DNA from: Bolinopsis microptera
Lineage: Eukaryota > Ctenophora > Tentaculata > Lobata > Bolinopsidae
Length of the DNA: 64,000 nucleotides
NCBI RefSeq assembly: GCF_026151205.1
Contig: NC_087073.1
Span: forward strand, 3,865,001 to 3,929,000
Direction of reading: 5' to 3'
Shown: in pieces, positions 24,905 through 59,834 of the stretch
How positions within the stretch are numbered: the stretch's first letter is position 1
How the letters are laid out: each line of letters starts with the position of its first letter
The notes under the pieces: generated by a model
What the model was told of the DNA's origin: nothing
Seen by the model: only the letters and a program-made list of their open reading frames with translations
Databases searched by the model: none
Position numbers and translations under genes: made by a program

Positions 24905-25940
24905 TTGATTTCTTTGAATCCAGAAACAAAAAGCAAATGTGATCAAAACTGCAAAAACTGTACTGCACTCAAATCTCATATCAAGTTTCTCGAGCGGAAA
25001 GTAACCATCCTAGAAGACATTGTTCAAACTTCTCAGACTATAGTAAAACAAAATTTTAGTAAAACAAAATTTTATTTTATACCCACAATCAAATTATATT
25101 TAGTTCAAATATTTAAAGTCAGAATAACCATTTCACAGAAGTGGTTTTATTACAATAAAATAATTTGTGATATGTGTACAAGTGATAAATTAATAAATTA
25201 ATTTACACTCAAAAATGTACAAAAATACACAATTTTTACTTTGCAACACTGGTTCTGCGCGCAGCTGATCGAAAAAGTTTGGTTTACATTTACTAACTAC
25301 AGTGTGCAGCGTACGCGTACATGAAAAGATAACTTACTGGATTGTTTAATACTAAATACATATTAAGTCAGACGTTGTTCAATGAATAGCAGAGATTAAT
25401 GGTACGTTGTTACATTAAAGTACCAATCAGTCAATAGATTATCAATTTCTGGATAAGTGTTCAAATGTTGCAGTTCAGAACTTCAAAACGATCAGATTGA
25501 ATATAATAGTGAATGAAAGATGCCTGAATCTTTCATGCTAATCAATAGTGATGGCATCATTGAAGCACCATAGTCTATTATCTCCATCAACACAGAAAAT
25601 CAAATCAGTGGGAGTACAGGCTCAGTCAATCCCTGGAGTGGCGAGTATTATACTGGACTAGATGTAACACCCATATCTAGTGTGGTCTTAAGTGTACATG
25701 ACGAAAGCCCTGACATTACCATACCACCTGTCGAACTCATTGATCAGGCACCGTTTCAAAAATTTTCCATAGACATCTTTCTGAGAGAATTGGATTTTAG
25801 CCACCAGTTTCAAAATAGGGAAACAGCTAATTTTGGGGAATTCTCATATATGTGTACATTGTACAATGGGGGAAGTCACGAGGGAAATACAACATCGGTC
25901 CTATCTAGCTGTTATCTGTTCAAATTTTTTTATCAATAAA
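24905..25940 (+). pseudogene. Possible 5' remnant of a plus-strand AlkB-type LINE ORF1
   Basis: A cysteine-bearing stretch followed by a heptad-like coiled coil is encoded at 24929-25060. At 25682-25939 an ORF ends with a 'Y-----NG--H' spacing like that just before the AlkB domain of the intact LINE ORF1 at 38987-40369. The likely continuation, an AlkB core, appears on the same strand at 30.57 kb. This may be one older element split by later insertions, but the link is weak. Confidence 0.3.
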
Positions 25941-27082: not shown

Positions 27083-29878
27083 TTATATTCCATATTTTCG
27101 TTGACCTCGTGAACTATGGTTGTCTGGGGGATCCGGTTTATTGATAATAAGCATTGGTTTCCTGGAAGAACGAGAATACTCTTCGTACATAGACATAGGA
27201 GTAGAAAACTTCATGATCTTGAATAATTCTATGTAGCTATGGTAAGTATAAAGATTTTGTACAGTGAGTATCTCGTTGTTTTTAAACAGAGGTTTAGTGT
27301 GCTCCTTTTTATAGAATTTACTATCAAGTTTCTGGTCAGTAAATGGTCTGGTTCGAACACACGTTTTGAATTTATCCAGGTAGGCTGCTCTATCACCAAA
27401 CAAGACCCTCAGACAGTACTTCTGTGCAGTGAATATTGAGCTTATACGATTTTTAGCTGCCCCACCCCATGCTGATATGCAGTACGACAGATGGGATTCA
27501 AAAAGAGTGTAGTATAACTGTCTGTGGAGAAATTCTGGGAGGGAGCAGCGTAGACGACACAGAGTTGAGGTGGCATGGTTAAGCTTTCGTTTTAGGGCTA
27601 TTATATGTTCTTCCCATGTTAGATTTTCGTCAATGACGACTCCTAAAAATCTAGCTGACGTTACTCTTTTGATGGGGTAGTTGTCTATATTCATTATGAA
27701 TTCTTCTTCAACGTTTGCTTCAGTACGTGACTTAGGTCTAAAGTGAATGTAGCAGCATTTTGACATGTTTATGTGAAGCTTGTTAGCCCGCATGTATGTT
27801 TGAAGGTTTGAAAGTAGGGCGTTGCTGCGTTCATATGCTTCTTGTGCAGTTTTACCAACAACAAATATGTTGGTGTCATCCGCAAAGGTGACAAACGATC
27901 CCAAGCTAGAGCTATTAGAGATATCATTTATGTAAAGTAGGAATAGAAGGGGTCCGAGAATTGACCCCTGGGGAACCCCAAATTTTATTGGAAGTAGGTC
28001 GGACTTTTCTCCTACAACATCAGTGTACTGAAATCGATTAGTTAGGTAGCTCTTGATCAGATCGTTTGCCACGCCACGGATGCCATACCTTTCTAGTTTG
28101 GTAAGTAATGTTGAGTGATCTATAGTATCGAAAGCTTTGCTGAGGTCGATGAATATGCCTAACACATGGTGCTTCAATTTGATGTGCTTAGATATGAGGT
28201 CAACAGAGTAGTTTACTGCATGGGAGGTTGAGTGCGATTGCCTGAAACCAAACTGAGTCTTAGATATTATTCCCTGAGAGCTGACAAACGAATAAATCCT
28301 AGAATATATGATTTTCTCAAATATTTTGCCAAATATGGACAAGGTGGATATAGGACGGTAGTTTTCTATTTCTTCTGGATTACCTTTTTTGAAGACAGGT
28401 GTGATTCTGCCAGTCTTAAGTATATCAGGGAATATACCATTTGACATAAGCTTGTTTAAGTATCTACTGATAATTGGTGCAATAACGTGGGACGAAGTTT
28501 TAATAACGGTTATGGGAATATCACTGGCCTTTCCATTCTCGAATTCTTTGATTATTCTTAGAACCTCCTCAGGAGTGCTGTCCTCTAACATAATAGATCG
28601 AGAGTTACTAGGGCTAAGGAAGTCATGGAATGTTTTCATGGGGAGAATTGGAATACCAGAAGACAAGTCAGTTGTGATAGTTTCATTGAGCTTGGGAGCA
28701 ATTGATACGAACCAGGAATTAAAACCATTGGCAATAGCTCTCCGGTTCGAGATTCTTTCATTATTGATGATGAAAGGTGGTTTGGTTGTTTTCTTTCTTT
28801 TGCCCCTAAGCTCATTTATTATCTGCCAAGTTTTCTTACTGCTTTCAATGTTTTTATAGATTTCGTTACAGTAATAGGAGCGTTTGGCTGCCTTTATGAT
28901 ACCCTTAAGCATCCTACGATAGTCACTAAATATCTTATAAAGAAGGACATTGCCAGATGGATCTTTATTTGTTACTGTATCTGACCATTCTTTACAAAGC
29001 TCATGTTTTCTGTCAATTGAGAGGATGATTCCATCTGTAATCCAAGGATTAAGCTTTGGTGTTCTTTTGGTCGTTTTCGGTACTTCTAATTTACAGTGCT
29101 TGTCAAGGGTGGATTTGAAGCAATCGACAAATTCGCAAAAATCTGAAGATTGGGACAGCTGATTCACCTTCACCTCAAGGTCAGAAACAAAATTTTTAAG
29201 CTTGGTACTTGAGTAGTCGTAGTAGCGGACATGTTTTTCATTGTTCTTATTTCTTGGGGCCGGGGTTGAGGTGAAGGAGAATATGAACGTGTGTTCACTT
29301 AATCTATCCTGAAGTACACCAGAGAGCAAAACATTATCAATATCACTAACTAGGATGTTATCTATACACGAGTTTTTACAATTAGGCCGGAAGTGGGTAG
29401 CAATTGAGATGGATGGATACAAACCATTACTAATTATAGTGTCTTCAAATAACTGGTTGTGTGACGAAACTTTGAAGAGGTCTGAGTTAAAGTCGCCAAG
29501 CAAACGAAAGGGCTTGCCGGATATCTGCTTAGCAATGGTTTGTAAAATTTCACAAAAAGCCTCAAGGCAGCCACTAGGGGGACGGTATACAACTCCGTAG
29601 ACAACCCCAACACCAGTGCTATCAGTGATTTCGGCGAATAAGCATTCAATGTTTACAGTACAGTAGGATAACTTTTCTAGGACAACAGTGTTAAGGTTGT
29701 CTGAGACATAAAGCGCAACCCCAGTGCCCTTTTTCTTATCTGGGAGGGTATTTTGATAAAAACTGGTGTAAGATGGGATCTGGTATAATTCTTGTAAGCT
29801 ACTATCCCACTGTCTGACCAGGTTTCCTCTGTCTAGTTCTCTCAAGTTTCTCACGCACATACACCCAATGTTTAACAC
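27083..29878 (-). CDS. LINE ORF2: reverse transcriptase with partial APE endonuclease
   Basis: 931-codon frame from a non-LTR retrotransposon of CR1/L2-like type. The N-terminal part keeps the late endonuclease blocks ('LLGDFNSDLF', 'SEHTF') but lacks the early ones (Asn motif and the Glu of 'ETW'), so the endonuclease is truncated and probably inactive. The reverse transcriptase is well kept: 'YRPIS', 'FIDLSKAFD', 'GVPQGSILGPLLF' and the catalytic 'FADD'. The last part matches the usual C-terminal region of such ORFs. Upstream on the same strand is an SGNH-hydrolase fragment (29802-30224) whose frame overlaps. Together they suggest a 5'-truncated or internally deleted copy. The first ~30 residues read through SGNH-encoding DNA in another frame and are probably not real. 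Confidence 0.9.
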   Translation of the reverse strand: MLNIGCMCVRNLRELDRGNLVRQWDSSLQELYQIPSYTSFYQNTLPDKKKGTGVALYVSDNLNTVVLEKLSYCTVNIECLFAEITDSTGVGVVYGVVYRPPSGCLEAFCEILQTIAKQISGKPFRLLGDFNSDLFKVSSHNQLFEDTIISNGLYPSISIATHFRPNCKNSCIDNILVSDIDNVLLSGVLQDRLSEHTFIFSFTSTPAPRNKNNEKHVRYYDYSSTKLKNFVSDLEVKVNQLSQSSDFCEFVDCFKSTLDKHCKLEVPKTTKRTPKLNPWITDGIILSIDRKHELCKEWSDTVTNKDPSGNVLLYKIFSDYRRMLKGIIKAAKRSYYCNEIYKNIESSKKTWQIINELRGKRKKTTKPPFIINNERISNRRAIANGFNSWFVSIAPKLNETITTDLSSGIPILPMKTFHDFLSPSNSRSIMLEDSTPEEVLRIIKEFENGKASDIPITVIKTSSHVIAPIISRYLNKLMSNGIFPDILKTGRITPVFKKGNPEEIENYRPISTLSIFGKIFEKIIYSRIYSFVSSQGIISKTQFGFRQSHSTSHAVNYSVDLISKHIKLKHHVLGIFIDLSKAFDTIDHSTLLTKLERYGIRGVANDLIKSYLTNRFQYTDVVGEKSDLLPIKFGVPQGSILGPLLFLLYINDISNSSSLGSFVTFADDTNIFVVGKTAQEAYERSNALLSNLQTYMRANKLHINMSKCCYIHFRPKSRTEANVEEEFIMNIDNYPIKRVTSARFLGVVIDENLTWEEHIIALKRKLNHATSTLCRLRCSLPEFLHRQLYYTLFESHLSYCISAWGGAAKNRISSIFTAQKYCLRVLFGDRAAYLDKFKTCVRTRPFTDQKLDSKFYKKEHTKPLFKNNEILTVQNLYTYHSYIELFKIMKFSTPMSMYEEYSRSSRKPMLIINKPDPPDNHSSRGQRKYGI

Positions 29879-30275
29879 ATCTCACAAACTTAGATAGACC
29901 GCGGTTGCCAAGATGTATCTCATCCCCATCTCTGGTCAAGTTCATGGCAAGCAGACCATTGTTATCAACGAAGTGATAGACACCGATCTGCCACACGCTT
30001 TGCTCGAAGCTTGACTCAAGCATATCATAGACAAGTCTGTTGAACATGATGATGTTCATGTTCATGCGGGGAAATCGCGAAGGCAACACAGCGGTAACAA
30101 ATATCTTAATACGAGGGCATATAGTCTGGATCTGTTGTAGCTTCAAGTGGAGAATATCCACTAGTTGATGAACATCGTTAGGAGATTTCAAGTTCTCAGT
30201 CCGGAGATCATTCGTCCCACACACAATAACAGCATTGCTGTATCCTATGCACAGTGACGGGTCAATGTTGCTGAT
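29802..30275 (-). pseudogene. LINE ORF1 fragment: C-terminal part of an SGNH hydrolase (esterase)
   Basis: The frame has the block III signature 'CGTND' and the block V Asp-x-x-His as 'DGDEIHL', both typical of SGNH/GDSL esterases encoded by CR1-type LINE ORF1. Block I with the nucleophile Ser is absent because the copy is cut at about 30275. The frame overlaps the start of ORF2, consistent with an internal deletion joining the two. Confidence 0.78.
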
Positions 30276-30520: not shown

Positions 30521-31070
30521 TTGATAATGAAGTATTGCTTCGTTATTGTTATCAAAGTTTGTGTGTCTGATCATCGTGACGTCTTATCCCCGAATTATTA
30601 TTACAACAGTGCTCTCCTGAACTACTATAGTACTGGGACAGAATGCATGCCTTCCCATAATGATAATGAAGAATGCACCGAAGAAAACTCTCATATTGCA
30701 GTTCATTCACAGAAATTAAAACAGGAAAAGTGGTGTCTGCCCTAGATCTAAAGCATGGAGATGTTTGTATCATGTCTAAAAAATCCCAGCTTCATTACAG
30801 ACATGAAATCTGTACTCAACCATCTTATACAGACAAAAGGATCAGTATCACAATCAGACTGATCAAACCTGTTGTCCCCAGACTAACAAGTACACCAACC
30901 AACATGTGCAATGACAACTACCATGACCCATATGAAAAAATCTCAAACTCCAGCAGCTTATCAAGAAGACGAGTTAAGAGTTCATCCATGACAGGTGCTT
31001 ATCAGCAACCAGCCTATAGATAATATATACATTAGTAGTAGCATGTTCAGAGACCTTAGTGGGGCATTGC
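30521..31070 (+). pseudogene. Decayed AlkB-like dioxygenase plus SGNH block I, plus strand
   Basis: The frame at 30521 carries 'NSALLNYYSTG' and the Fe-binding His-x-Asp as 'SHNDNEE' (His at 30656-30658). After a frameshift, the frame at 30673 carries 'LKHGDVCIMSK', a distal His ('YRHEI') and the 2-oxoglutarate-binding end 'RISITIR'. After another frame change, 'ISSSMFRDLS' at about 31019-31063 looks like SGNH block I. The domain order equals that of the intact ORF1 at 38987-40369, on the opposite strand. Frameshifts and a shortened middle show it is a dead copy. Confidence 0.6.
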
Positions 31071-32044
31071 TAAGCTCTAATAAACAAAGTGCAAAAAGAG
31101 ACTTTCGCCAGATAATTAATTCAAAAGGAGGATAAGAAACATGTTAAAAGGGTCTTTATCTTAAAACATCTTAAAAGGGACCAATTATGTTGATTCCATT
31201 AGTAGTAGGACTGTTCTTATGGAAGATGACATGGAAGGCATTGGTCAAAATTACTAGCAGACTATGGGAGATGTTTGATAAATGATAAAGCTAAATCATC
31301 TGTAATCAATATTTTACCAAAGGATGACACTCATAAGAATAATATGAGAATTAATTTTTCTTGAATACTTATATTTTTTCCCTACTCTTGCCGAAGGCAA
31401 AAAGATCGTAGGAAATAAGTTTGGATATATATATATGAGGTGGCCCAACGGTCCTACGTTGACGACAAAAGTCTGCTCCTTCGCAATATAGACCATTCCC
31501 CTATGATTATGTGTATTGGAAGCGTTTGTTATACTGCGCGCGACGCTAGCCATGTGTTAATTAATTACAGTGAATTTCCTCCTTCGCAAAGTTATTTTCC
31601 GAAATTTTCTGGATTCATTTATTGTTGATGCGCGCGGCGCTACATTGGTCAAATAAATCGTCAATTTTTACCATGCTTGAATCCCACTCATTTATTAAAA
31701 ACATAGTATGTAAATATAATGCACTTTTTCCGGTCACACTTTTCACTCGAAACAATTGATGGTACAACTACAAAATACAAATACATCGTAGGGAAGATTG
31801 ATGTGCGTGGTTCATGGTTAAACCGCGGCGAAATTCTTGTTAATAAAACGTTTCACAAACTGTAAACATTCAAATAAAATGATTAAAAACCCTGTTTTTT
31901 AAATCCTAAGCATCTAATTTTGATAATCACAGTTATATTTTTACCAAAAGCAAATTCCCTTAATTGCGCGCATTGTTGATTGTAGTAATAACTTTTTTCA
32001 AACTTCATAATCGCGATTAAATAATTTGCAATGTAATCATATAA

Positions 32045-34453: not shown

Positions 34454-37400
34454 ATGGCTGAAGATGATTGCTTTGAGGGTCTCTATCATTACTTGAAGGT
34501 TCTCGGGGAAGGAAGTTTTGGAAAAGCAGTTCTATATAGACGATATTCTGATAACTTCTTAGTGGTATGGAAGGAGGTAAACGCGTTTTCAAATATCTAA
34601 ATTGGTTTTATTTTTAGCTGTCAAATCACTCATGTTTAATATTTAATTCCTTATTCTTATAAATTAATTTTAAGTATGAACCATTGTAGGTGAAGCTAAA
34701 AAGCGACAAAGAAATCCAAGCAGCGCAGCATGAGGTGGACGTTCTGTCCTTGTTATCTCACCGGAATATCGTGGGGTATTACAACAACTATGTGGACAGT
34801 GATGTTATGTACATTGAGATGGAGTATGCTAATGGGGGCACCCTTAGTCATCTGATATGTGCTCAGCAGCAGTCTTTCGCTGAGGTGATAAATTTATTAA
34901 TTTAGAGGTAAATTCAATTGCAGTTAACGGTTTTGCAGGAACCACAGTCAGTATCCCTTTTTTTATTAAATACTTTTCAAATTTTACAGAGTACAGCAAT
35001 AGATGAATATAAAATAGAATCGTTCAAAATATCGCCCCCATCTGTAAAATATGATGGGCACCCAAACACGGTAAACACATAGTGAACTATGTCCGCAGTA
35101 ACTTGGACCCATTACATCGAATTAATCTAAATCCAAAAATTTATGAAAAACTATTTAATAACAAACAAATCCATGGTGAATAACTGTGGATATATAGTCA
35201 AAATTGGTATTTCAATACGTCAAATTCCAGATACATTAGATACAGGTCTGATATGGTCATTAATGTGTGAGGTGTGCGGGTGAAGTGTGATATGATGTTG
35301 AAAGTATAGGAAGGTAGATAAAAAAAATTAATAAAACAAAAATAATAATAATATGGGGAGCAAAGAGACTAGGCTAGGCTGTTGTTTCACTATCCAATAA
35401 ACATTTCCATAGATGCTTGGTGACCTCAGCTTTGAAAACACTTGTAAACACAATCTGTCTTACCTGTAAAGGGAGTCCATTCCACAGTATATGAGTTCTG
35501 TAGAAAAATGATTTTGCCAGTGGGCTATTTGAGGTACATAAGGTGTGTGAATTCTGACTTAACTTAGGTAAAATTGATGACACAATAGACAGACTGTCGA
35601 GGTGGCAACGTCTTAGTCGAGAAGTGCCCTGATATAAAGTGAGATAGTGAGGCAGCGATACAGGAATTAAATTGTTTAGAACTTTGTGGAAAAAAATAAG
35701 ATCATTCAAGTCAAACTTTTGAGACAAAGGGAGAATGTCGACAAGCTTGCACTTTTTGACATATTGCTCAGGTGGATAACTGCGGCCCTCTTCAGACAGA
35801 ATCCATTTAATAGCTCTCTTTTGGAGACTTTCTAATTTATCACTAAGTGATTTATTACAAGGGCGCCAGATTATGGAACAATTTTCGAATTGGCTACGAA
35901 CCAGGGAGAGGTAAAGCGCCCGGCGACGTTTCTGATCAATGACAATATGGCCATCTCTTCTGACCATACCAAGTTGTTGGCAGGCCTTAGTATAAATTCT
36001 GTCGCACTGACTATTCCAACTGAGCTTAGGAGTAACATCGACTCCAAGATCTTTTTCTAACTCTACATACACAAGAGGAGAGCCATCAAGATTATATGCG
36101 AATGGAGGAGATAAAGATGGTTTTCCTGAAACAATAAGCACTTTACATTTTGCTGGATGGAATCGCATTTTGTTTCTAAGTGCCCAGTCAGAGAGATAGT
36201 CTATATCCATTTGTAAATTGGTAATATCAGAAGATGAATGTATTTTACGCCAGATTTTTGTATCATCGGCATACAAAACAATATCAGTATTATCCGAAAG
36301 GCCAAGAGGAATATCATTGATAAACAATACAAAAAGTAAGGGACCAAGGATAGAGCCCTGGGGGACACCAGAATTAACTGAGAGGGTAGATGACATCTCA
36401 TTACCAATAACCACTCTTTGGTAACGGCCTTGAAGGTAATTGGTAAGAAATTTGAGAAGTGTACCATCAATGTTATATAAGGTCTTTAGCTTATGAAGAA
36501 GGATATCATGATTTACAGAATCAAATGCCTTAGCAAAATCAAAATACACAACATGATTGATAATGTTTTCGTTAAGAGACAATGCCAGGCTATCACAAAA
36601 ATCAACCATATTGGTTGTGCATGACTTGTGCTCTAGAAAACCATGCTGCCTGGGATCAAGAAGGGTACTTGTCAAAGAAAGCAGTTTACGTTTAACAATG
36701 CGCTCAAAAACTTTCATGACTAAACAAGTAAGGGATATTGGTCTATAGTTTTCAACCTCACTTTTCTTACCTTTCTTAAATATTGGGACAACATTTGCAA
36801 GTTTCCATTCTTGTGGAATGTAGCCGCTGTTGTAGGATCCACGAAAAATGCATGTTAGAGGGTAAGCTAAACCTACGGAACAATTTTTTAGAATTTTACC
36901 GTGTATGCCATCTGGTCCCTGGGCTTTATTTGAATTAATATTTGAAAGAAGCTTACGAACATCCCGATGATCGAAGTCAATATCAAAATCAACATCATTG
37001 ACATAGGAGATGTCAGTGTCATAAAGTGAAGGATCCGAAAACTGGTTATAAAAGAAAGAATTGAAAAGTTCAGCTTGATCTTTGGGATTGAACCGAAGCT
37101 GTCCAGAATAACTAACACAATTAGGAATACGGCAGGAGTTAGATTTATACTTAACATGTGACCAAAACTTCTTAGTTATAAGCGCTGGATCATCACTATT
37201 AAAAAGATTATCTCTTATTTTGGCTGATGAGAGCCTCTTAAAATCTTTACGGCTAGTAACAAACTTTAACTCATCAGAAATAGAACCAGAAATTTTAAAT
37301 TTAGCTCTGAGTCTATCTTTTTTACGGCATGAAGAAAAAAGTTCACTATCGAACCACGGGGGTTGGAACTCTGATTTAATAATTACTTTAGGAATATGTA

Positions 37401-40400
37401 TATCAACTAAATTCATAATGCAGTCTTTAACTAACTTCCAAGACGAATCAGGATCTAGGCATTCTAGGACTTGCCAATTAATCGAGCATAATTCACGATT
37501 AACCATGTCCCAGTTTGCTTTCCTAAAATTATAGATTTTACGTTTAGGAGTTTTCTTACGGGAAAAGGAGCTTTTAATTGAAAAAGTGACAGGAAAATGA
37601 TCAGATTTGCACACGGAATGAGGATCACAGACATTCAAGTTATCGATTGTGTTATCATAATTACTGAGAAGAATGTCTAATGTATTACCACTTTTATGGG
37701 TGGGTGATGTGATCAACTGGGAAAGAGAAAGATCACTGAAAGAATCTATGAAGGATTGCTCAATAGGTACGGTACTGGATGAAGATAGCCAGTCTGTATG
37801 GGGGAGATTAAAATCACCAATAACATAGATTTTAGGGGGATTCTTTTTGGAAACTAGCTTGCGAATATAACTAACTATGACATCATGATTAGGTAACCCA
37901 AGAGTTCCTACTCTATAACAAGTACAGATTACAATACTCTCTTTGTTAGGAAAAGAAATTTTAACGGCAAGCATTTCTGCACCTAGGCTAACTGGTAGTC
38001 GGGTTGTAGTGGCGTCGAGATCAGACCGAACAGCCAAAAGAACACCACCTCCATTTTCCCTAAACTTTTTAGGGTTATTAGGATCTTGAGGATGAGTCTT
38101 TCTCGTGCGGTCATTGCGGAAGATTTCATATTGAGAAGAAGGAAAGATTTCGTTGCTAGAAATAGATTTTTTGAGCCAAGTCTCATTTAGGGCAATTATG
38201 TCAGGCTGCTCTATGTTAGCAAAGGATTGAAGTTCGGAAATCTTATTACCATCAAGAAGGGGATGGGAGGAGCTTAGGTTACTGAAAGGAATGAGACCTT
38301 GGACATTTTGGTAGAGTACAGATAGGGAGTTGGGACCTGGATTAAGCATAGAAGGATTAACAAGAGTTATCAAAAGAAAGTTAAGAGAGAAAACCCAAAG
38401 AATGAATAAAGAGACTAGACGCCTGAGGCGGCTGGAATACTTGACTCTATTCATCTTACCAGGGAGAAGAACATTTCTTATAAACCATGAGGAGATAATT
38501 ACAAAGAAAAGTTTGATGTGGGAGCAAGCAAGAAATGGTATAAGATAACGTGGGCTGTCAAGGAGTAGAGAGGAATGAATATTAGAATCTAGGGGGAATA
38601 CGGTGTTCATGGACCTAACCGTGGAGAGAAGAATTGGGAGAAAGTAAGTCATGATGAGAGAATAGAAGAGAAACATATGATTATGATAATTGTAGTTGAT
38701 GTGTGGGGTGTATGGAGACTTAAATGTGTAAATTTTGTTAGGTATAAACGTGTTGATATGTATAAGTGCATTTCTTGACTGTGTACGAGGCCTTTTGCAT
38801 GCAAAAAGACCTATTCTAAGTCTAAACGATTCATTGTCTAACATATTGGAAAATGGACAGTGACCGAATGTACCTGAAATGGGAGGCATAAAATTGAGAA
38901 AAAGATTAAATCAGAGATTTGTTTGAGTTTTAATTTTAGGCGCAACGTCTTAATCAAAATATTAAATGGAAGAAAAGATCAAAGATTTAAATTCCCAGAA
39001 GATTATTTACAACCCTGTCAAAACTGTGTTCGTTTACAACAAACTTAAGCCAAGTGGACAGTAAACCTACTCCTCTCATGTTGAGATGAAGCCAATCATG
39101 GTATAGAAGTTCATTACATGATCTAAAGTCTCGAGTTAAAAAGACTGAGAAACAGTCTAAGAACACGCAATTATTATTTAGGCATAAGTCTTTAAGTAGA
39201 TTATTAAAATCTAGAACATTCTTTGCTATGTAGGAATATAAACACTTAATAGGAAGACAACATTGGATAATTATAATTGCAGCGGGAAATAACTGCTTAG
39301 TGGTGTCAATTAATTCAGTAAGATACTTCCTAAGGAACTGAACCCCATACTTAGAATGTTTAATGTCATTTGTACCAACACTCAATATAATTTTTTCAAT
39401 ATCGTCAGCTTCTGCAGCTGCATGAGTTTTATGAAAATTATGAATGTTTTCAGTGATGTCTCTAATTTTTGCACCACTTTGAGACACATTGATTACTTTC
39501 CTTCCCCGGAATCCCAACTTATTTGTCCGTACGAATTTTGTCATTGACGTACCAAACAGGACAGTGGTTTTCCTGCTCTTCGGTTTTCTTGGAGTATTTC
39601 GGTAGTAAAGGGTTGGTGTTGAGGTGGTGGTGGGCGGCATAGGAATTGTAGTGCGGGCAATCTGCTCCTTGACTACATTTGTATCTGTCTTCGGTATCTG
39701 GCAGCGAAAAAATAAGCTATACCGAGTCCCCTTAACTGAGCTCTCTGCACGAACCTTGTGAAGACAATATTCCTGACACCCCGGTTTCATAATATACAAA
39801 CTACAGTCCTTTGGGGTGATATAGCATTTACTGTTACATCGCTTATCCCCATTTTCTGGAATTATGTCGATGGTCCTCTCAGCTCCAAATGAAACTACAT
39901 AAATACCTTGCGACTGGTCAAGAGACACCTCGTCGTCGTTGTGGTACCTAGTTGCACAAGAACCAGACTTGTACATGCTTGCTAGGCATGAGTTTAGCTT
40001 GCAGCCAAACTTGGAGTTGATATCATGCATAAGCTCTGATATCCCAGGATAATTTAAAATATCGATTGGCTCCTTAGTCGTGGTGTGTCCATTTGAGGAA
40101 GACCATACATATTCTTCTCCAGTGGAAGTGAGCCACTTTGTGGCAGTTTTCACAGCAGTTTGCTTGGCCATAAGTGTTTCAAGTTCAGACATCAACGTGC
40201 CATGTTGAACACTCTTGTTCTGAACAAAATGTGAATGCAATTCCAAGAAGTCCTCGCATTTAACAGAATTTCTCTTAAGTTTCATGACATTCTCAACACT
40301 GGCCTTGAGAGCTTTCAGCTCATTTAATGAAAACGAGTTTAAAACATTGGTAACAGAATTCAGATCCATAGTGATGTGAGGAAGAGGGAGGAGAAAATGG

Positions 40401-43400
40401 CGGTGAGGGAGGAGAAAATGGCGAAGTCAATACTGTAGCCCAGGAAGTAGATGCGTTGCTTAGGATACAAACGGTCACGTCATAGTCTCTTCTATCGCTT
40501 TGACATTGGGACCTCAAATTATTTGTTATATAGCCTAACGGCTAATATGTATAATATATATATAATAATAACCATATACAATAGTAAAATTAATTACTCA
40601 ATATTGTTTGATAATCCAAGCAGTTAAATTGTTTAAATATTAATTAGCTTTGATTGTAGGGTGGTTAGGATTTAACTGAATCTGGCCGCTACCCTTCCCA
40701 GTTCCCATCAGTTGTCAAGTCTTCCATTATTATGCAAAATATTTTAATATTATGAAGTCTTGTCATAGCTGTCAAGTGTCTATTAGATTTCCCGCCATCG
40801 TGGATACTAAGTTAATTTTTTAATTGATGACAGTTCGGTTAATTAATGGTAGTCACATCAGCCACCATGGTTCAACAACATATTTCTGATAAGTTAGAGT
40901 TGTGTACCAAGTACATTTTAACATTCAAAGCCCTACTTAGAAAGGCGGAATGCCGAATTCTCCCAGTACTCAGTAGGCATGCCAGACTTTTTAAATGCAA
41001 ATTGACAGTGTATATCTGATGGTATGCTAATGGTATGCTGATGGTATGTAGAGTCAAAGTTAAATGTATTTTACTTTTCAAGTGCTTTGTAAATGTACGA
41101 CACTACAAGCAAACTGAGGCGGCTGACTTTGTAATAACTAAGCATCAAACAAAATATTTAATATATTATGTATAATGTATATTATAATAGATACAAATAT
41201 ATAGAATAAATGTGGTCGATTAAGTTAATAGCTTCAACGTTACCAATCTAGAGTACGTGTTTCTTATACTTCAAATTTGCATCTTTAAAATAATATTAGC
41301 TAACCTTTATGCCGTAAAGCTGAGAAACCTGCTTGTGTCAAGACCCTTAGCCTTGGTACATTCACACTCACCGTGTTCTATTGTATTTACACACAAATGA
41401 TTATCTGGATTTGTGATGCTGTCTGTACAAGTTTAGGTGCTGGATCTGCTCTCCAAGCAGATCACACGCTGCACAAATCCTCTGTTTAACACATCAAATG
41501 CCATAAAATTACTGGTGTGTAATAAAGAATGTAAGTTTAAGTACGTCCTCCTAGGGAGTGTTAAAAATGTGCTCTCCGTGGATAACATAATTTGCGTGAA
41601 GAAAAGTAGATGGTACTGCCATAAACTCTTCTTCAGAACAAGAGTATAGCCTCTGTAAATTATCCTTTTCACTTTTGATCTGCCGATTCAATTGACCATT
41701 GTACTGCACGACAATCTTGATCGTTTTGATGTAAAATCATTAAATTAATCACAGTGAATCTCCGAGACAAGGTAGCGGAGATAATGTCAGTAAATTATTT
41801 TCAAGTCCAGAAAGGATCAGTGAAGGAATAAATATTCTCGGTATTCGACATAAATTGATAATAAGTTAATGACCCCGGTATTTCAGGAGGAGGTGTTGTG
41901 GTATTTTTACCAGCTGTGCTGCGCCTGTGTATACCTACATTCCAGCGGGATAATCCACAGAGACATTAAAACTGTCAACATCTTTCTCAACAAGGTTGGT
42001 AACAGCAAAACTAACCAATCAGGGAACAGATAGCAAGGATTTCTGCCAATCAGCTGTCAGAAGTGTCATCTGATCAATGACCGTGCTGCGGGGTTATTTG
42101 TCGGGTGCGCTTTTAAGTCTAAGATTCTGAGTTATAATTCAGAGAAATTAGTAAAATTATTCAGTATTTTGATGAATGGTGGGAATATTTGGTGGCAAAT
42201 TAATTCTGTTTCTAAAATTCTGATAACTGTTTGGGCGTAAACCTGTTGTAAGACTTGCTGGTCCATATTTCCAGTACAGTAAACGTGCTAAATGCTAATT
42301 CCTCACTGTAATGTAGCATTATTAAGTCTAATGACCATTACATTATAATGCAATTAAAGGCAGTGGTTATGCAGTAATTTCTTGGCAGCCACTCAATTAT
42401 GACTCCCGCGTGATTATCTATAAAACGTCAATCTGCCACGTAATATTTTCAAGGAAGTCAGGAACGTTCATTTAACATTCATGTAACATGCTTATTACAC
42501 ACATCTCATGTTCGATATAATTGTAAATTGTAATCTTCTCAGACAGGAATTCTGAAAGTAGGTGATTTTGGTATCAGTAAGATGTTGACCTCAGACAGCG
42601 AGGCTGCTGACTCTATTGTTGGAACTCCCTACTACATGAGTCCTGAAATCTGCAGGTTTGTTGGGTGCCCCACTTTTTATATCACAAAATATATTTTTAT
42701 ATCACAAAATATCATTATGGTTTTGTTTTATCCCATCCCGTGATATGACTCCAATTCTGACTATATTCTGACCATATATATTCTGAACCTATTCACTCAC
42801 TAGAACAACAAACTAACCCGAAAACCAAATTTTAATCTTCCGAATCATTATCGAGATAAAATGAGGTTAAATTTCGTCAGGTATTATTTCCTGTACTACA
42901 TTTTTAAAGATATCTTCAATAGTGATATTTTTCCTTTTTTGTCACGTTGATCGAATTCTTTTCTTAATCGACGCTAAAATAATCTTTTGGAGCATAAACC
43001 AAAGTTTAACAATGATAGAAACTCGGTTTTGAAATAAATGCGAAGCCAATGTACATACAAACAGGGTAATGGTATTTACATCAATTTTACACATTAAAAC
43101 GACTCGAAAATGCCATATGTAAGGAAGTAAGAAGAAGAAGATTTTACTCGAATAATTAAATTTTAATAAATAAAACGACAAAAAGAACTGATGTTTCTAG
43201 ACACACTACTACTATGACGTGATCACTGAACACTAATGTCTATTCTTCATCGATCACTTCCGAAGGGACCTCCTCTGGCACTGAAATAAGAATACAGTTA
43301 GGTCTCTCGCCAGACGTTAATAAAAAATATAATTGTGAAATATTCTTATATCAATATGCTCTCTCGCTGTATTTAGTGAATAATTTCAAGAGTTCTCTAG

Positions 43401-55400: not shown

Positions 55401-58400
55401 AGGAGTAGGGGGCTTGTCTGGAAGGGTGTCTAGGAAGTTTCCGAGAAGTGTCTTGAAGCTTGCCAGAGTCGTTTGGTATTGACAACTTTGGGGAGAACAT
55501 TCCAGAGTCTTTCAGCTCTCACTGCGAATGAGTTTTCGTAGCCCGTAGCCAGAGTGTGCACCAGCTGATGCTTTTCTAGTGAAGGGAGTATTACTTTAAC
55601 TCCCAGTCTGGCATTCTCTCTGGACTGTATATGATAGGGTAGTGTGGATATCATAAAATGCCAGACTAGAATGCCAAACCTCTTCATTTTCGGTGAAATG
55701 TTAAGATACTATTTTGACTCACGTCGAAGCCTCTTACTTCGCTAATATGTTAAAGTGTTAGTCCTTGATGCCCTTAAATCCGAGAGAAAAATCAGCATCG
55801 CCGACGTTACGCGCGAACACCAAATGACATTGAATTGAGGCAACATTTTAAGAAACGCATTTAGTGCAACATTTTGGCGCGTATATTTGCGCGCACATTT
55901 GAAATTGTAGATATTTGGACCACATGTAACATCGACGACTACCTTCAAATATCATTTGAAGGTTCATATTATGATATGTGTGTATTAGGGCTATTATCAA
56001 TACATCAGCAGTAAACATATTCCTTAACCAGGTGTACATATGGGGAGGAGGGAAGACATCGCCACAAACCCTGGCTACATTCAAGAAGGAACTGGGTGCA
56101 GTGAAAGTTTGTGTAGCTCCAAAACATTTCTGTGTTGTGACAGTGGAAAAAGAGCTGTATGTTTGGTCCTCAGGTACTGTAATGGAATCATACAAAGAAT
56201 GCTAGCCTATAATGAGTAGTTTAGTTAACTCAGCCTTGCATTGAGCCTGATTGCAAAGCTGATTAGTGATCATTCTGAACACCAAACAATATCATGTTCA
56301 CTACACAAATGCTTCAAATTATATACAGCCCACTATTCACACCCCTCACATTCCACTGATCACGTGACATCCTCCGCAGGACACCCAGGAGAGATGTGCG
56401 GACAGCTGGGTCACGGAGACAAAGCCAGCTACCGGTCACCCAAACGAGTTGAACACTTGGTGGGTAATGGTGTGGTGGATGTTGTGGCGGGAGATGACTT
56501 TACCCTGGCTGTGGTGGAGGATGAATACGATGGGGTTAGAGTACTGGTCAGTTCCATTCATTTACTTGTTATTTGATTGCGAGATGAGCTGTAGGCCACG
56601 ATCGTTTGCAATTTATTTCCGTGCCAAGAAATGATATTAGATAATTTGATATATTATATCAAATTAATCTATTCAATGATTTAATATCAATCCAACGCAT
56701 ATACACTATACAGTGCAATTAGTGACTATTATACATTTATTTATGTCGAAACCCAATAAGCATTGACAATAATCCAACGATAATATTCAGGTAGCATTTG
56801 GAAGTAATTACGACGGATGTTTAGGGCTGGGAGAAGAGGAAGACAATAATTTAGTTCCAGTTCCGATTCCCTTTTTTAGCGGGGTCTCTGTCGTCAGTGT
56901 GTCCTGTGGAGATGCCCATGTTATGGCAACTACTAGTCTCGGAGAATTGTAATTACTTTTGACTATTCTTATGTAACATAAGTATTTCCTGGGGATGTAC
57001 AGTTTGTGATTGTTCATTTATGAGATTTTTATGCATGACGTAAGTCGTACAGACTGATTACGCATTTTATAATCGATTTTGGGACTGTTAGATTCGCGAT
57101 TTTCGTTACTACGTAACTGGAACAATGGGACAAAACAAATACCTTTGCTACAGTGTTATCATTTAATTATCTGCTATGGATATGTTAATAAACTGTTCAG
57201 GTACGGATGGGGTAACGGAGAGTACGGTTGTCTTGGAAACGACTGTGAGGACATTGTTTACATTCCTCAGAAACTGGAGATCAGGGGCACAAAGTTTGCG
57301 GCAGTTTCCTGTGGAAAACAATGCTCTTTCGTCATTACAACTGGTGGTGAGTTGGTTTTTTAGGTGAAACATCAGTAAACTAGTCCAGCCTTCTGACTGG
57401 AACAATGATAAAATTATAGTATCTACTGGTTTCAGAATGTATCAAATTATGATAATTTTAATGTTACTGTATAGTCAGTATTCAGTCGATGATTAATCTA
57501 GCTGAACTACAACTGCAGGAAACCTCGTAAGTATGTCGCTGCATATGTTTCAAAGTTAGGTGTACAAATTTGGATGAGTTCTTTTTATTTAAGCTTCACG
57601 GGTGTGTTCAGGTAAACTAATGGCCTGTGGTGACAACCAAGACAACAAGTTAGGTATCAACAAAATAGGGAGGAAAGGTTCTAAAGTGGCTAAGTGCGGG
57701 GAGACCTTCACTTTTAAACCTGTCTACGGTCTTTCCTCGGTCGCTATCAGGGTTCGTACTTATTTTCTTGAACGTTTTTTTAAAAGATTGAGTTTACAGC
57801 AGCTACTTAGTCGGTATAAGAACTGTTAATTGAATCGGTGGTCCACTTTTAGAATTAGGACGTCAAGCCACCTCTTAATATAAGCAGCAGGGTAGCTAAA
57901 CTTTATTTTACAGGACGTGGCTTGTGGTGTCGATCACACAGTTGTGATAGATGCGTACGACAGGATCTGGACATTGGGGTCGAACAAGTGTGGACAACGC
58001 GGAATAGGACACTACAAAGTCTACAGTCATCCAACCATCGTCAAGGCAAAAATTGCCGGTAAGCTAGTCTGTTAGAATTAGATGCTACAACTTTAAAGAT
58101 AGTTGAAAACTTACCCATGACAGTTTTCCGCTGAAACTTGAAACACGTTCCTAGTTTAACTCCAAACAAATCAAAAGTGTGTGATGATCACTTAACTCTG
58201 AAGGAATAATTATTATCTAACAACCTTGTCGTGTGCAGGTAAGAAGATAGCACTAATTTCGGCGGGGGACAGGTTCACAGTGGCAACTACTGTAGATAAT
58301 GAGGTATACTCCTGGGGATACAGAAATCATGGTCGGTTGGGGGATGGCATAAACAACGAACTTGGAAACAGGTTGGTAACTTGCGGTTTGAGAAGACCTT

Positions 58401-59834
58401 GCCATTTACCGCTATTTTTGAGGATGTTACTTAATAAGTATGTACTCCTATTTTTGATCCACATCTTTTCAGTGCGCGGAACAGTGTTTGTACCCCGACG
58501 CCTATCTTCAGTTCTCTCCACTACATCCCTGCCTTGTCTAGCAGAGGCTGGTACACTCTTCTAGTGGCTGAACAGGTGACACATTGTTTGTTCTCCAAGT
58601 CTTTAATGGCATTAAAAAAGCTGTTAGGCAAGCCATTTTTTTGTTGCGTAAACCGAACGTTTAATTGAACGGGATAATACACCTATCGAAAGTTTTTCTT
58701 TAAATGTACCTAACTTTGGGGAAATTCCGTCCCCCTAAGGTGCTTTCAATAAATAACCACTTTATAATCTGTCTTAACGTTCAGGTGATATCAGCTCAAT
58801 TGATCGGCGCATCTGAACAAGGGACCCGTCAGGACTCTATAGTGTCCGCCAAAACTCCAACCTGGCTTCATAATGAGATGGAACTGTGCGACCAGCAACA
58901 GCCTAGGACTCCTAACTTCGGTTTGTTAAACTTGGTAGTTTATAATGAACTCATCCTGCAATATTTGCAGAAGCTTTATTAGTTGTATGAAGGAGTGGTT
59001 AGTTGGTATCAGCAAGAGATTGACTTCTGTTAAAATGTACATTACTGAATTAATATCATTATCACTTCCTTATCATGAGTGCAATGCTGCGTGTCAGGTA
59101 TACCAATAACTTTGTCCTCAGGGCTCAGTTCGCCTATATAACATATTTTTATCGTTTGACCAGGTGGCGGGAAGATGTTCCGGAACGAAATGAGTCTGAG
59201 GAGTTACGACCACCAGTCCTCCAGCGGTGTTTCTTCCGCAAACAGCCAGGATCTAGTGACGTCAGATAGCGGTAATTCATCCGGCAGTCAGCAGCTGCCG
59301 TCATCAAAATCAGTCTCGTCCGCAGCAGCAAACAGCTCCAGTTCTGGTATCGTTTCATCAGACAATGAACCATCTCAAGCTGAAGCAGTATCCCAAAACT
59401 TAGCGGCTTCCAAACCAACAGACTGTTCAAAACCAGCGCAGAGTATTGTACCGGACCCATCCCCTGCCGAAGCTCCTAGTCCTTCTCGAAATGATACCCC
59501 GCCCACATCCCCACCTCCTGAGTTCAGAGCTGAGTTCTCGTTCAGCGAGGTTAGGCTACAGGAAGCGCTAGCTAAGTCAACTAGAGCAGACATAAACTCA
59601 CTGGCAAGTCCTGATTCAAGCGGTGGACTATCAGGACGGGAAAGTCTGCCCACACCTACCCCTCAACTTCAAGTTATTACAGAAAGTGTCAGTATGGAGG
59701 AGAGGGTTAGGCAGTTAGAGACTGAACTAGAACGGGAGAGACAGAAGATCAAGGAACGAGATAAGACTATTGCAGAACTTGAACAGAAACTCATGAAGTA
59801 TCAGATTGATGAACTGAAAGGGGTCATGGATTGA
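34454..59834 (+). CDS. NEK9: NEK9-like kinase (Nercc1): kinase, RCC1 propeller, coiled coil
   Basis: Mitotic/ciliary Ser/Thr kinase; NEK9 is known to act downstream of PLK1 and upstream of NEK6/7. Seventeen exons keep one frame of 945 codons: 34454-34576, 34690-34884, 41887-41994, 42543-42655, 49823-49952, 54114-54179, 54576-54737, 56032-56173, 56380-56546, 56791-56948, 57201-57346, 57612-57751, 57914-58058, 58239-58371, 58473-58575, 58785-58920, 59164-59834. Kinase motifs: GEGSFG (18-23), Lys40, HRD (130-132), DFG (150-152), GTPYYMSPE (169-177) and DPANRPT near 246. RCC1 repeats span about 300-677, starting 'VYIWGGGK'. A Ser/Pro-rich region follows, then a C-terminal coiled coil (about 898-940). 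Vertebrate NEK9 is close in length (about 980). No clear dynein-light-chain TQT motif was seen. Introns 2, 4, 5 and 7 hold other genes or element copies on the minus strand. Confidence 0.94.
35374..38889 (-). CDS. LINE ORF2: APE endonuclease and reverse transcriptase, intact
   Basis: 1171 codons as an uninterrupted frame. Endonuclease motifs are complete: 'YQNVQG' (193-198), 'NETW' (235-238), 'GDFN' (358-361) and 'SDHF' (429-432). Reverse transcriptase motifs are complete: 'YRPISL' near 715, 'FDFAKAFD' (783-790), 'GVPQGSILGP' (841-850) and catalytic 'YADD' (873-876). The first ~190 residues are unusual: three hydrophobic segments, then 'MLNPGP' (181-186), which keeps the NPGP core of 2A-type ribosome-skipping peptides although the preceding Asp-Val/Ile-Glu is not kept. 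Translation could begin lower down, and the long N-terminus is not proven. CR1/L2-like by layout. Confidence 0.94.
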   Translation of the reverse strand: MPPISGTFGHCPFSNMLDNESFRLRIGLFACKRPRTQSRNALIHINTFIPNKIYTFKSPYTPHINYNYHNHMFLFYSLIMTYFLPILLSTVRSMNTVFPLDSNIHSSLLLDSPRYLIPFLACSHIKLFFVIISSWFIRNVLLPGKMNRVKYSSRLRRLVSLFILWVFSLNFLLITLVNPSMLNPGPNSLSVLYQNVQGLIPFSNLSSSHPLLDGNKISELQSFANIEQPDIIALNETWLKKSISSNEIFPSSQYEIFRNDRTRKTHPQDPNNPKKFRENGGGVLLAVRSDLDATTTRLPVSLGAEMLAVKISFPNKESIVICTCYRVGTLGLPNHDVIVSYIRKLVSKKNPPKIYVIGDFNLPHTDWLSSSSTVPIEQSFIDSFSDLSLSQLITSPTHKSGNTLDILLSNYDNTIDNLNVCDPHSVCKSDHFPVTFSIKSSFSRKKTPKRKIYNFRKANWDMVNRELCSINWQVLECLDPDSSWKLVKDCIMNLVDIHIPKVIIKSEFQPPWFDSELFSSCRKKDRLRAKFKISGSISDELKFVTSRKDFKRLSSAKIRDNLFNSDDPALITKKFWSHVKYKSNSCRIPNCVSYSGQLRFNPKDQAELFNSFFYNQFSDPSLYDTDISYVNDVDFDIDFDHRDVRKLLSNINSNKAQGPDGIHGKILKNCSVGLAYPLTCIFRGSYNSGYIPQEWKLANVVPIFKKGKKSEVENYRPISLTCLVMKVFERIVKRKLLSLTSTLLDPRQHGFLEHKSCTTNMVDFCDSLALSLNENIINHVVYFDFAKAFDSVNHDILLHKLKTLYNIDGTLLKFLTNYLQGRYQRVVIGNEMSSTLSVNSGVPQGSILGPLLFVLFINDIPLGLSDNTDIVLYADDTKIWRKIHSSSDITNLQMDIDYLSDWALRNKMRFHPAKCKVLIVSGKPSLSPPFAYNLDGSPLVYVELEKDLGVDVTPKLSWNSQCDRIYTKACQQLGMVRRDGHIVIDQKRRRALYLSLVRSQFENCSIIWRPCNKSLSDKLESLQKRAIKWILSEEGRSYPPEQYVKKCKLVDILPLSQKFDLNDLIFFHKVLNNLIPVSLPHYLTLYQGTSRLRRCHLDSLSIVSSILPKLSQNSHTLCTSNSPLAKSFFYRTHILWNGLPLQVRQIVFTSVFKAEVTKHLWKCLLDSETTA
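38987..40369 (-). CDS. LINE ORF1: fused AlkB-like dioxygenase and SGNH hydrolase
   Basis: 460 codons. Residues about 1-75 are helical and coiled-coil-like. Residues about 85-225 form an AlkB-like 2-oxoglutarate/Fe(II) dioxygenase: 'NSCLASMYKSG' then the metal-binding His143-x-Asp145 in 'YHNDDE', the second His at 204, and the cosubstrate Arg216 with 'YSLFFR' to 222. A Thr/Pro-rich linker (about 240-262) leads to an SGNH hydrolase: nucleophile Ser275 in 'FGTSM', Asn344 in 'VGTND', then Asp435 and His438 in 'HDWLHLN'. Every catalytic residue of both domains is present. SGNH domains are known in CR1-type ORF1 proteins; an AlkB domain fused to one is not familiar to me. The likely role is RNA binding or modification in the element's ribonucleoprotein, which is inference. 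Confidence 0.85.
   Translation of the reverse strand: MDLNSVTNVLNSFSLNELKALKASVENVMKLKRNSVKCEDFLELHSHFVQNKSVQHGTLMSELETLMAKQTAVKTATKWLTSTGEEYVWSSSNGHTTTKEPIDILNYPGISELMHDINSKFGCKLNSCLASMYKSGSCATRYHNDDEVSLDQSQGIYVVSFGAERTIDIIPENGDKRCNSKCYITPKDCSLYIMKPGCQEYCLHKVRAESSVKGTRYSLFFRCQIPKTDTNVVKEQIARTTIPMPPTTTSTPTLYYRNTPRKPKSRKTTVLFGTSMTKFVRTNKLGFRGRKVINVSQSGAKIRDITENIHNFHKTHAAAEADDIEKIILSVGTNDIKHSKYGVQFLRKYLTELIDTTKQLFPAAIIIIQCCLPIKCLYSYIAKNVLDFNNLLKDLCLNNNCVFLDCFSVFLTRDFRSCNELLYHDWLHLNMRGVGLLSTWLKFVVNEHSFDRVVNNLLGI
40394..40423 (+). promoter_or_regulatory. Pair of YY1-like motifs in the LINE 5' region
   Basis: AAAATGGCG occurs at 40394-40402 and 40415-40423, inside a duplicated 'gggaggagaaaatggcg'. 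The position is just 5' of LINE ORF1, and the motif is read on the strand opposite to the element. AAnATGGCG is the YY1 core, which also sits at the 5' end of human L1. Function here is inferred. Confidence 0.4.
40511..41886. other. Rest of NEK9 intron 2, nothing seen
   Basis: AT-rich intronic sequence between the 5' end of the LINE and NEK9 exon 3. ORFs at 41433-41672 on both strands have no recognised motif. Confidence 0.5.
43240..48551 (-). CDS. Secreted lectin with five F-type (fucolectin) modules
   Basis: Sixteen exons give about 744 codons: 48551-48406, 48260-48116, 47941-47788, 47617-47482, 47342-47198, 47036-46883, 46696-46557, 46371-46224, 46086-45930, 45822-45684, 45295-45148, 45007-44851, 44671-44533, 44198-44066, 43726-43573, 43280-43240. 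The start codon opens a signal peptide (MLLLLAFVGITAG). Each module uses three exons with the same phases: an 'NVA...WGGVASR-IDG' exon, a 'SC-HS...RLD-CC' exon, and a 'FADEH-CG...VCE-EVL' exon. Module 5 has the exact F-type sugar motif H-x26-R-x-D-x4-R. Modules 1-4 carry a longer spacer and x5, so binding may differ. Exon 46696-46557 has one extra T at its start that breaks the frame, probably a homopolymer error. There is no C-terminal membrane anchor. Probably binds fucose-bearing glycans in innate recognition. Lies wholly within NEK9 intron 4. Confidence 0.88.
48658..48668 (-). promoter_or_regulatory. Candidate TATA box of the lectin gene
   Basis: On the minus strand 'cttttataaaggtac' contains TATAAA about 110 nt before the lectin ATG (48551). 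That leaves room for an 80-nt leader without introns. The motif is short and could occur by chance. Confidence 0.35.
48670..49822. other. NEK9 intron 4 sequence upstream of the lectin gene, nothing seen
   Basis: No further exon or RNA gene recognised. A plus-strand ORF at 48738-48938 has no family motif. Confidence 0.5.
49953..51753. other. NEK9 intron 5, proximal part, nothing seen
   Basis: ORFs at 50676-51180 overlap in several frames and show no domain. It may include the 3' untranslated region of the minus-strand membrane protein gene. Confidence 0.45.
51754..52749 (-). CDS. Eight-pass membrane protein with internal duplication, family not recognised
   Basis: 331 codons in one exon. It has eight hydrophobic segments in two sets of four that align with each other. 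Set 1 (about residues 9-145) and set 2 (about 165-292) share 'Q(I/L)TFEK' at the end of their first segment, a Trp/Gly-Trp-led second segment ending 'L(C)V-R', 'RG-(L/V)TF--S-(I/L)LN-S-G--G--GV-C' across the third, and 'P(I/V)-(A/G)SAA-F' in the fourth. A hydrophilic tail with Arg residues follows. The ATG is close to a possible acceptor ('ctccttcag' seven bases upstream), so an untranslated 5' exon may exist. It lies antisense in NEK9 intron 5. I cannot assign a function; a transporter or tetraspan-like sensor is possible. Confidence 0.72.
   Translation of the reverse strand: MVNPDLPTPTLILAGILSQITFEKIALQMDLSPPSEYFEITWRLALFCDYPGIGWLELVLLSTLLAVLCVIRTPTKNKLLRGTLTFVGSLILNASVGSVGFTGVYCLNEHFDYRISLEIFQYATTPIFASAAVFVAINYLKRSPVTTELPPNERDPLICRLSVFTPGTAIFLTGVCAQLTFEKLLGILVTSYPTAPDFCAHRGVGSWAQLSALSAFLLLIILCVNRGRQRLPRGVVTFLVSFLLNSSLGHIGGVGVFCGSQYSFSVREMYCRYVNIPVVGSAALFFFALFLKMSDDDHPALFQFPAEVRPGISRAIETNTRYLRGLLLRNN
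52750..54113. other. NEK9 intron 5, distal part, with a local ~100-bp duplication
   Basis: About 53880-53990 and 54035-54113 share 'gtggtgagatgcctg', 'gacggtcactaa' / 'gacagtcactaa' and end in 'cactt-ctttc-tttt-cag'. The second copy supplies the acceptor of NEK9 exon 6. A 'gacggttgacggtcactaat' doublet is also present. Confidence 0.55.
55379..55690 (-). pseudogene. LINE ORF2 C-terminal fragment in NEK9 intron 7
   Basis: The minus-strand frame carries 'NSFAVRAERLWNVLPK', the typical end of LINE polymerase ORFs. After a one-base frameshift it reads 'FLDTLPDKPPTPEYS' and then a stop, the usual closing motif. It is a 5'-truncated, decayed copy. Confidence 0.75.
55742..56031. other. Intronic, nothing seen
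   Basis: Last part of NEK9 intron 7. No exon or RNA gene recognised. Confidence 0.5.

Follow-up and report, generated by a model that had tools for sequence, protein, structure and literature searches.

A predicted AlkB-like dioxygenase joined to an SGNH esterase in LINE ORF1 proteins of the ctenophore Bolinopsis microptera

Esterase-type (Type IV) first open reading frames (ORF1s) are known from long interspersed nuclear elements (LINEs) of the CR1/L2 kind, for example ZfL2-1 of zebrafish (PMC3905857; PMC4120745). The element described here, F1, lies in a 64,000-nucleotide stretch of the genome of the ctenophore Bolinopsis microptera (contig NC_087073.1, positions 3,865,001 to 3,929,000; the whole stretch is called the window). 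Like the ZfL2-1-type LINEs, F1 has in its ORF1 an SGNH domain with catalytic residues, upstream of an ORF2 with endonuclease and reverse transcriptase (RT). Unlike them, it has a predicted AlkB domain of ~190 residues ahead of the esterase. An ORF1 survey reports esterase ORF1s solely from vertebrate groups in its accessible parts, where 'alkb' or 'oxygenase' is used 0 times (PMC4120745).

AlkB itself is known from a different retrotransposon class. Orchid (Phalaenopsis) Ty3/Gypsy elements carry an ORF of the AlkB/2-oxoglutarate-dependent dioxygenase (2-ODD) kind, whose product is an N6-methyladenosine (m6A) RNA demethylase in vitro (PMC9289625), and F1 is likewise a retrotransposon with an AlkB-family dioxygenase. 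The orchid AlkB, however, belongs to a plant long terminal repeat (LTR) element, is encoded by an additional ORF and is nested among Arabidopsis ALKBH5 homologues, and the available parts of that account do not mention an esterase (PMC9289625), whereas the AlkBs reported here occur in LINE and Helitron-type frames, are ALKBH2/3-like and are fused to SGNH. LTR retrotransposons of bdelloid rotifers have a GDSL-esterase ORF3 and are a precedent for ORFs common to unlike retroelement types; they differ from F1 in that AlkB is not mentioned in the accessible text ('alkb' and 'oxygenase', 0 uses; PMC5408684). The terms 'AlkB', 'oxygenase' and 'demethylase' also have 0 uses in PMC5563155. In plant RNA virus replicases, too, AlkB is a domain added to a genetic parasite, and such viral proteins were among our fold matches, but the replication machinery is unrelated and F1 ORF1 is no replicase. 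Host ALKBH3 and ALKBH2 have the same fold, iron ligands and arginines as F1 AlkB, yet 11 of the 12 transposon AlkBs analyzed branch apart from the host ALKBH3-like frame. What is known already, then, are esterase ORF1s and AlkB in an LTR retrotransposon. AlkB in a LINE ORF1 or a Helitron is apparently new: we found no report of it in the open-access literature (titles, abstracts and term searches, with Repbase, Dfam, InterPro and subscription journals outside the search), although Repbase could hold it. Within the searchable papers this agrees with a first-pass annotation of the window, made from the letters alone, which knew of no described LINE family with the fusion.

The F1 element and its two-domain ORF1

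The first-pass annotation proposed that an open 460-codon frame fuses AlkB to an SGNH hydrolase, next to an intact ORF2. The frame is real, with an ATG start on the minus strand, and profile and PDB matches place both AlkB and SGNH in this LINE ORF1, which is of the esterase type known from CR1/L2; for the AlkB half, fold matches agree. The adjoining ORF2 is indeed intact (1171 aa with endonuclease and RT). The parts of the element are:

34958..40533, minus strand: whole LINE of family F1, ~5,576 bp, ends set by other F1 copies
40370..40533, minus strand: 5' untranslated region, a 164-nt leader with a 21-nt unit present 1.9 times at 40384-40423
38987..40369, minus strand: ORF1, 460 aa, ATG start; N-terminal helices, AlkB, Pro/Thr-rich linker, SGNH
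40271..40363, minus strand: predicted N-terminal helices, residues 3-11 and 15-33 (AlphaFold2 model, block-mean predicted local distance difference test (pLDDT) 69-87)
39686..40264, minus strand: predicted AlkB domain, residues 36-228; H143, D145 and H204 for iron, R216, R222 and Y133 on the 2-oxoglutarate (2OG) side
39569..39685, minus strand: Pro/Thr-rich linker, residues 229-267, from the translation; least constrained part of ORF1
39056..39562, minus strand: predicted SGNH esterase domain, residues 270-438; S275, G299, N334, D425 and H428
35374..38889, minus strand: ORF2, 1171 aa, intact; endonuclease residues 208-434, reverse transcriptase residues 708-918
34958..35373, minus strand: 3' untranslated region, a 416-nt trailer with AATAAA and a short A run at its end

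Sequence, profile and fold searches concur in predicting an AlkB domain of the ALKBH2/3 type in F1 ORF1. Residues 47-223 match the PHROG family 'alkylated DNA repair' with E 5.2e-17, a search of PDB sequences matched ALKBH3 (E 1.6e-7), and a profile made from 9 phage and plasmid AlkBs only scores the protein at 91.5 bits (E 7.4e-27). When 56 AlkB relatives were supplied, AlphaFold2 modelled the AlkB domain well; the domain is predicted to take the double-stranded beta-helix fold and is ALKBH2/ALKBH3-like in a fold search. The model from the single sequence was unusable (mean pLDDT 33.7). The check by profile and structure search that the first-pass annotation had suggested recovered AlkB. The modelling it also suggested succeeded for this half of the protein and gave no usable model of the SGNH half. 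The N-terminal helices could possibly form a coiled coil.

His143-x-Asp145, His204 and Arg216 stand where the first-pass annotation placed them, and R222 was found in addition. The HxD...H iron ligands and the R-x5-R pair at the 2OG side are kept in 10/10 rows of the AlkB alignment and in 25/25 F1 copies. They are also kept in 15/15 AlkBs compared from this genome (12 transposon, 3 host-like), rows that were picked by profile or match and independently of these residues.

The SGNH half matches Pfam GDSL_2 (E 3e-12). Its top PDB match is 4c1b, the ZfL2-1 ORF1 esterase (residues 270-438, E 1.1e-5; E 2.8e-5 in the PDB search that also gave ALKBH3), in an alignment that pairs S275, N334, D425 and H428. 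GTND occurs at 332-335 and HDWLH at 424-428, and the four paired residues are kept in 25/25 F1 copies. The esterase residues had been named earlier as Ser275, Asn344, Asp435 and His438; the serine is right, and the other three were misnumbered by ten (334, 425 and 428), positions 344, 435 and 438 holding Q, G and S. Because AlphaFold2 block means are 25-70 from residue 241 on, the assignment of this half is drawn from sequence comparison.

AlkB-bearing families across the genome

F1 is a multicopy family. The genome searched (264.65 Mb, 232 contigs) contains at least 94 matches to F1 ORF1 (92 scored of 908 candidates). Among them are 26 unbroken, near-full-length copies with ≥95% identity as printed (94.6% by BLASTP for one), which rules out a chimaeric assembly or a chance frame, and 19 rows at 37-44% identity represent older copies with several stops each. 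ORF2 gave at least 40 rows (39 scored of 6868 candidates), 33 of them stop-free. The gap between the two frames is 97-100 nt in 20 pairs taken from the ORF1 and ORF2 lists (100 nt in 18).

The ends of the element also follow from these copies. On the 5' side, BLASTN similarity (E 1e-10) ends 144-164 nt before the ORF1 ATG in 7/7 other copies, with the limit at 164 nt (position 40533) in four of the seven; on the 3' side it ends 414-419 nt past ORF2 in 4/4 copies, i.e., at ~34958. Past these ends no more similarity was reported, which is what independent insertions would show. A target-site duplication was looked for at the ends of the window copy and none was convincing. ORF2 matches Pfam Exo_endo_phos_2 (8.8e-13) and RVT_1 (1.6e-28). 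Since the intact copies are near-identical, the family appears to have been active recently, and the window element is best described from its sequence as a recently active esterase-type, CR1/L2-like LINE, the class being taken from the kind of esterase in ORF1. Within 25 of the 26 copies, pN/pS (non-synonymous over synonymous polymorphism) is 0.12 for the N-terminus, 0.35 for AlkB and 0.25 for SGNH, and 0.84 for the linker (residues 227-267).

Three further families, F2 (L104-L109), F3 (L101-L103) and F4 (L110), combine AlkB with SGNH in ORF1 and each include at least one copy with a full-length ORF2; their near-full-length ORF2s are 46-49% identical to that of F1. AlkB identity to F1 is 37% for F2, 38% for F3 and 30% for F4 (27-43% among all four families), compared with 28, 27 and 32% for SGNH; over the six pairs, AlkB identity is the higher in four and 2 points lower in two. 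H143, D145, H204, R216, R222, Y133, R165, M194 and Q199 are identical across F1-F4. The same holds for the S, G, N and H of SGNH but not for D425, which is Lys in F2 and Gly in F3.

The Pfam AlkB model PF13532 matched at least 151 stretches of the genome (150 scored of 587 candidates). The rows listed all exceed the cut-off, all but one are stop-free, and the frames recur in length, with 18 listed rows at 551-552 aa and six above 2,000 aa. F1 was not found among the rows listed. The same search matched in three of 14 control genomes. We inspected 18 of the 151 stretches (12 loci and six further places) and found three host-like frames (L139-L141), eight of a type called F5 (L142 and L144-L150, of which the sequences of L142, L144 and L145 were examined), two Helitron-type frames (L143 and L152) and five others (L153-L157). 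With 15 of the 18 in what read as transposon-type frames, AlkB is, on this sequence evidence, widely expanded in mobile elements.

F5 combines an AlkB-SGNH ORF1 with a 998-aa endonuclease/RT ORF2 (L151). The further types are F6 (L157), F7 (L154), F8 (L155), F9 (L156) and F10 (L153), with partial sequence read for the ORF1s of F8, F9 and F10. The Pfam SGNH match is under the cut-off in F5-F7 and F9; F8 and F10 are unmatched, and SGNH is there by motif only. Endonuclease/RT sequence follows ORF1 in F6-F9 (weakest in F8, E 3e-10), and the piece fetched downstream of ORF1 in F10 gave no such match. As predicted from these frames, AlkB is found in nine types of LINE ORF1, F1-F9, the SGNH of F8 being recognized by motif only. 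With the Helitron-type frame added, the first-pass annotation of a single fused ORF1 understates the case.

F5 and F6 (L145/L151 and L157/L161) have AlkBs at a synonymous distance (dS) of 1.4 but share 99.2% identity over the ORF2 piece, so ORF1 has apparently been exchanged between elements. Residues 118-169 of the F7 ORF1 (L154) resemble a PHD-like zinc finger, under the Pfam cut-off; PHD-like fingers occur in other CR1/L2 ORF1s (PMC4120745).

The two Helitron-type stretches, L152 (1-6001, contig C10) and L143 (223-3402, contig C12), belong to frames of 3388 and 2459 aa. In L152 a single frame holds AlkB (PF13532, 4.6e-21), then DUF6570 (PF20209, 7.9e-14) and Helitron_like_N (PF14214, 2.8e-22). 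In L143, SGNH comes first (31.1 bits, Pfam cut-off 32.9), followed by a Pro/Ala-rich stretch and then by AlkB (2.1e-22). A Helitron-type transposase thus seems to carry AlkB, the type being assigned from the N-terminal part of the frame.

A midpoint-rooted tree was built from 12 transposon AlkBs, three host-like ones and 27 references, which is a small set. Eleven of the 12 transposon AlkBs fall on one branch (support 99/98), and the Helitron pair stands beside F4 (99/94), nested among LINE AlkBs. The F10 AlkB lies outside this branch on a long branch of its own, and a single origin of all 12 was not rejected (p-AU 0.493). With the window AlkB as the only transposon sequence in a tree of references, placement failed (end branch 6.03). 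An ALKBH3-like frame of its own, L140 (PDB ALKBH3, E 2.5e-39), is present in the genome, and this and the other host-like frames branch apart from the 11. That separate frame, together with the branching of the window AlkB with transposon AlkBs, rules out that the window AlkB is simply host ALKBH3.

Possible role of the AlkB domain

ORF1 proteins accompany element RNA. ALKBH3 and AlkB act on 1-methyladenosine (m1A) and 3-methylcytidine (m3C) in single strands, ALKBH2/3 types act on the same two marks, and m1A and m3C block reverse transcriptases. With this background we lean towards a role in which AlkB, bound within the ORF1 protein (ORF1p), would repair or demethylate the single-stranded nucleic acid of its own element, activity and substrate both being predicted from sequence. 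ORF1p would coat or accompany the element RNA, and its AlkB would strip N-methyl groups, m1A and m3C being the likeliest, and so keep the template copyable. We favor these marks over m6A because sequence and fold are ALKBH2/ALKBH3-like. The first-pass annotation had likewise inferred that the element may protect or edit its own RNA, naming removal of m1A or m6A as examples, a reading that is supported in part. In favor of the role are the AlkB matches by profile, PDB sequence and fold, closest to ALKBH3 and ALKBH2, the retained iron ligands and arginines, AlkB identities that mostly exceed those of SGNH among F1-F4, the ORF2 or endonuclease/RT sequence accompanying ORF1 in F1-F9, and the AlkB of the Helitron-type frame. 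The esterase might act in ribonucleoprotein or membrane steps, a role put forward for ZfL2-1.

The AlkB in a Helitron-type frame, which might act on a single-stranded DNA intermediate, makes an RNA-only role one possibility among others and points to single strands, whether of RNA or of DNA, as the substrate in common. The need common to LINE and Helitron would be a clean single strand. More tentatively, AlkB with SGNH might serve the mobile elements of this lineage generally as an accessory that keeps single-stranded replication intermediates free of blocking methyls, acquired once from an ALKBH2/3-like source, passed among LINE families and carried into Helitrons, a class of DNA transposon.

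Several observations weigh against the preferred role. The window ORF1 is unmatched by PF13532 even with E values as high as 1; its PF03171 score of 17.8 bits falls short of the 23-bit cut-off. In AlkB, the Asn two residues ahead of the conserved Tyr contacts 2OG. This position, N in 55/56 references, is occupied by S131 in F1, by Ile in F2, by Leu in F3 and by Thr in both F8 and F9; F4-F7, F10 and the two Helitron-type AlkBs keep the Asn. T220 (55/56 references) is Phe in the window copy and Ser in the other 24 of 25 F1 copies. Between two F1 subgroups the AlkB dN/dS (non-synonymous over synonymous rate) is 1.17, with means over 32 pairs of 1.5 synonymous and 5.9 non-synonymous changes, and variants common to at least four F1 copies comprise one synonymous and five non-synonymous. 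This pattern reflects relaxed or positive selection, or too few sites. Other comparisons speak for the role: besides the pN/pS of 0.35 within F1, AlkB dN/dS is 0.168 between the two Helitron-type frames and 0.156 for F5 against F6, the latter measured at a near-saturated dS of 1.4. Constraint on AlkB over the long term is well supported; in the youngest F1 lineage it is not. Finally, an AlkB found in both LINE and Helitron may serve a purpose other than template repair.

The main rival to the reading that AlkB keeps the template copyable is m6A removal, in which AlkB would erase the m6A marks of the element RNA and so spare it silencing or degradation by host m6A readers. The orchid Ty3/Gypsy enzyme, an m6A RNA demethylase in vitro for which the authors propose a link to host surveillance in the available part of their account (PMC9289625), argues for it; with the ALKBH2/3-like fold pointing to other marks, we consider it unlikely. 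Alkylation might instead be reversed in the single-stranded DNA of integration (LINE cDNA or the Helitron rolling-circle strand) and not in RNA. The ALKBH2/ALKBH3-type fold of F1 AlkB and the Helitron-type frame, Helitrons moving by way of a DNA intermediate, are both consistent with this, but ORF1p is generally associated with RNA, and we judge such target or cDNA repair distinctly improbable.

The fold could also be a non-catalytic module that merely binds nucleic acid, replacing the RRM domains of other ORF1 types. The substitutions of the 2OG-contacting Asn in F1-F3, F8 and F9, together with the lack of the usual Gly141 and Trp142 in F1, would fit a binding module. So would ZfL2-1, where a coiled-coil construct and the esterase formed no stable complexes with oligo(A) RNA (PMC3905857), which leaves another RNA binder wanted. 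Yet iron ligands and both arginines, needless for binding alone, are kept in 12/12 transposon AlkBs, and a purely binding role seems very improbable to us.

Of the parts of a LINE, ORF1 is understood least, including what the esterase of some ORF1s is for. A dioxygenase beside the esterase, kept at ~30% identity between families, suggests that nucleic-acid modification limits retrotransposition. The module in a Helitron would amount to an exchange of coding modules between RNA-based and DNA-based transposon classes, and transposon AlkBs might yield natural demethylases useful with reverse transcription.

Searches beyond the genome and other features of the window

Scans that depend on short exact patterns confirmed no relatives of ORF1 or ORF2 in viral contigs and none of ORF1 in genome contigs. 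The SGNH half had 0 matches in phages and plasmids at E 0.01. In a prokaryote genome collection, nine contigs had a LINE RT motif and none of the nine a credible ORF1 match (best E 0.48). F1 ORF2 shares 31.7-32.9% identity with LINEs of three contigs that are filed as Poribacteria. LINE fragments occur in contigs filed as bacterial assemblies (L002-L010; Poribacteria, a Bathymodiolus symbiont and others) and are probably host contamination.

The window holds further remains of AlkB-LINEs:

24932..25885, plus strand: decayed F5 ORF1, N-terminal part; residues 48-249 in pieces, 72-83% identity, best E 6e-65
30563..31248, plus strand: decayed AlkB and SGNH start of an F5/F6-type ORF1; F5 residues 318-398, 90% identity, E 3.5e-40
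27083..30275, minus strand: F7-type LINE, SGNH end and 931-aa ORF2 frame, nested in the F5-type copy

At 30563-31248 the AlkB profile matches in two frames (E 6e-7 and 3.3e-4), and PF13532 gives 1.6e-5, under its bit cut-off. The element at 27083-30275 is 54% identical to F7 over an RT piece (E 1e-179) and 32% over SGNH (E 6e-13); its AlkB part was not found in the window. We considered whether a single AlkB-SGNH element at 27-31 kb had undergone 5' inversion and rejected this, the plus-strand pieces being F5-type and the minus-strand element F7-type, as in a nested insertion. Three insertions of AlkB-LINE kinds (F1, F5-type and nested F7-type) thus lie in one 64-kb window. Rfam and tRNA scans of the window gave 0 matches. 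Exon-like stretches at ~34700-34890 and 55848-59834 resemble a NEK9-like kinase with RCC1 repeats when the translation is read by eye, in which case the F1 element would sit inside or beside an animal gene.
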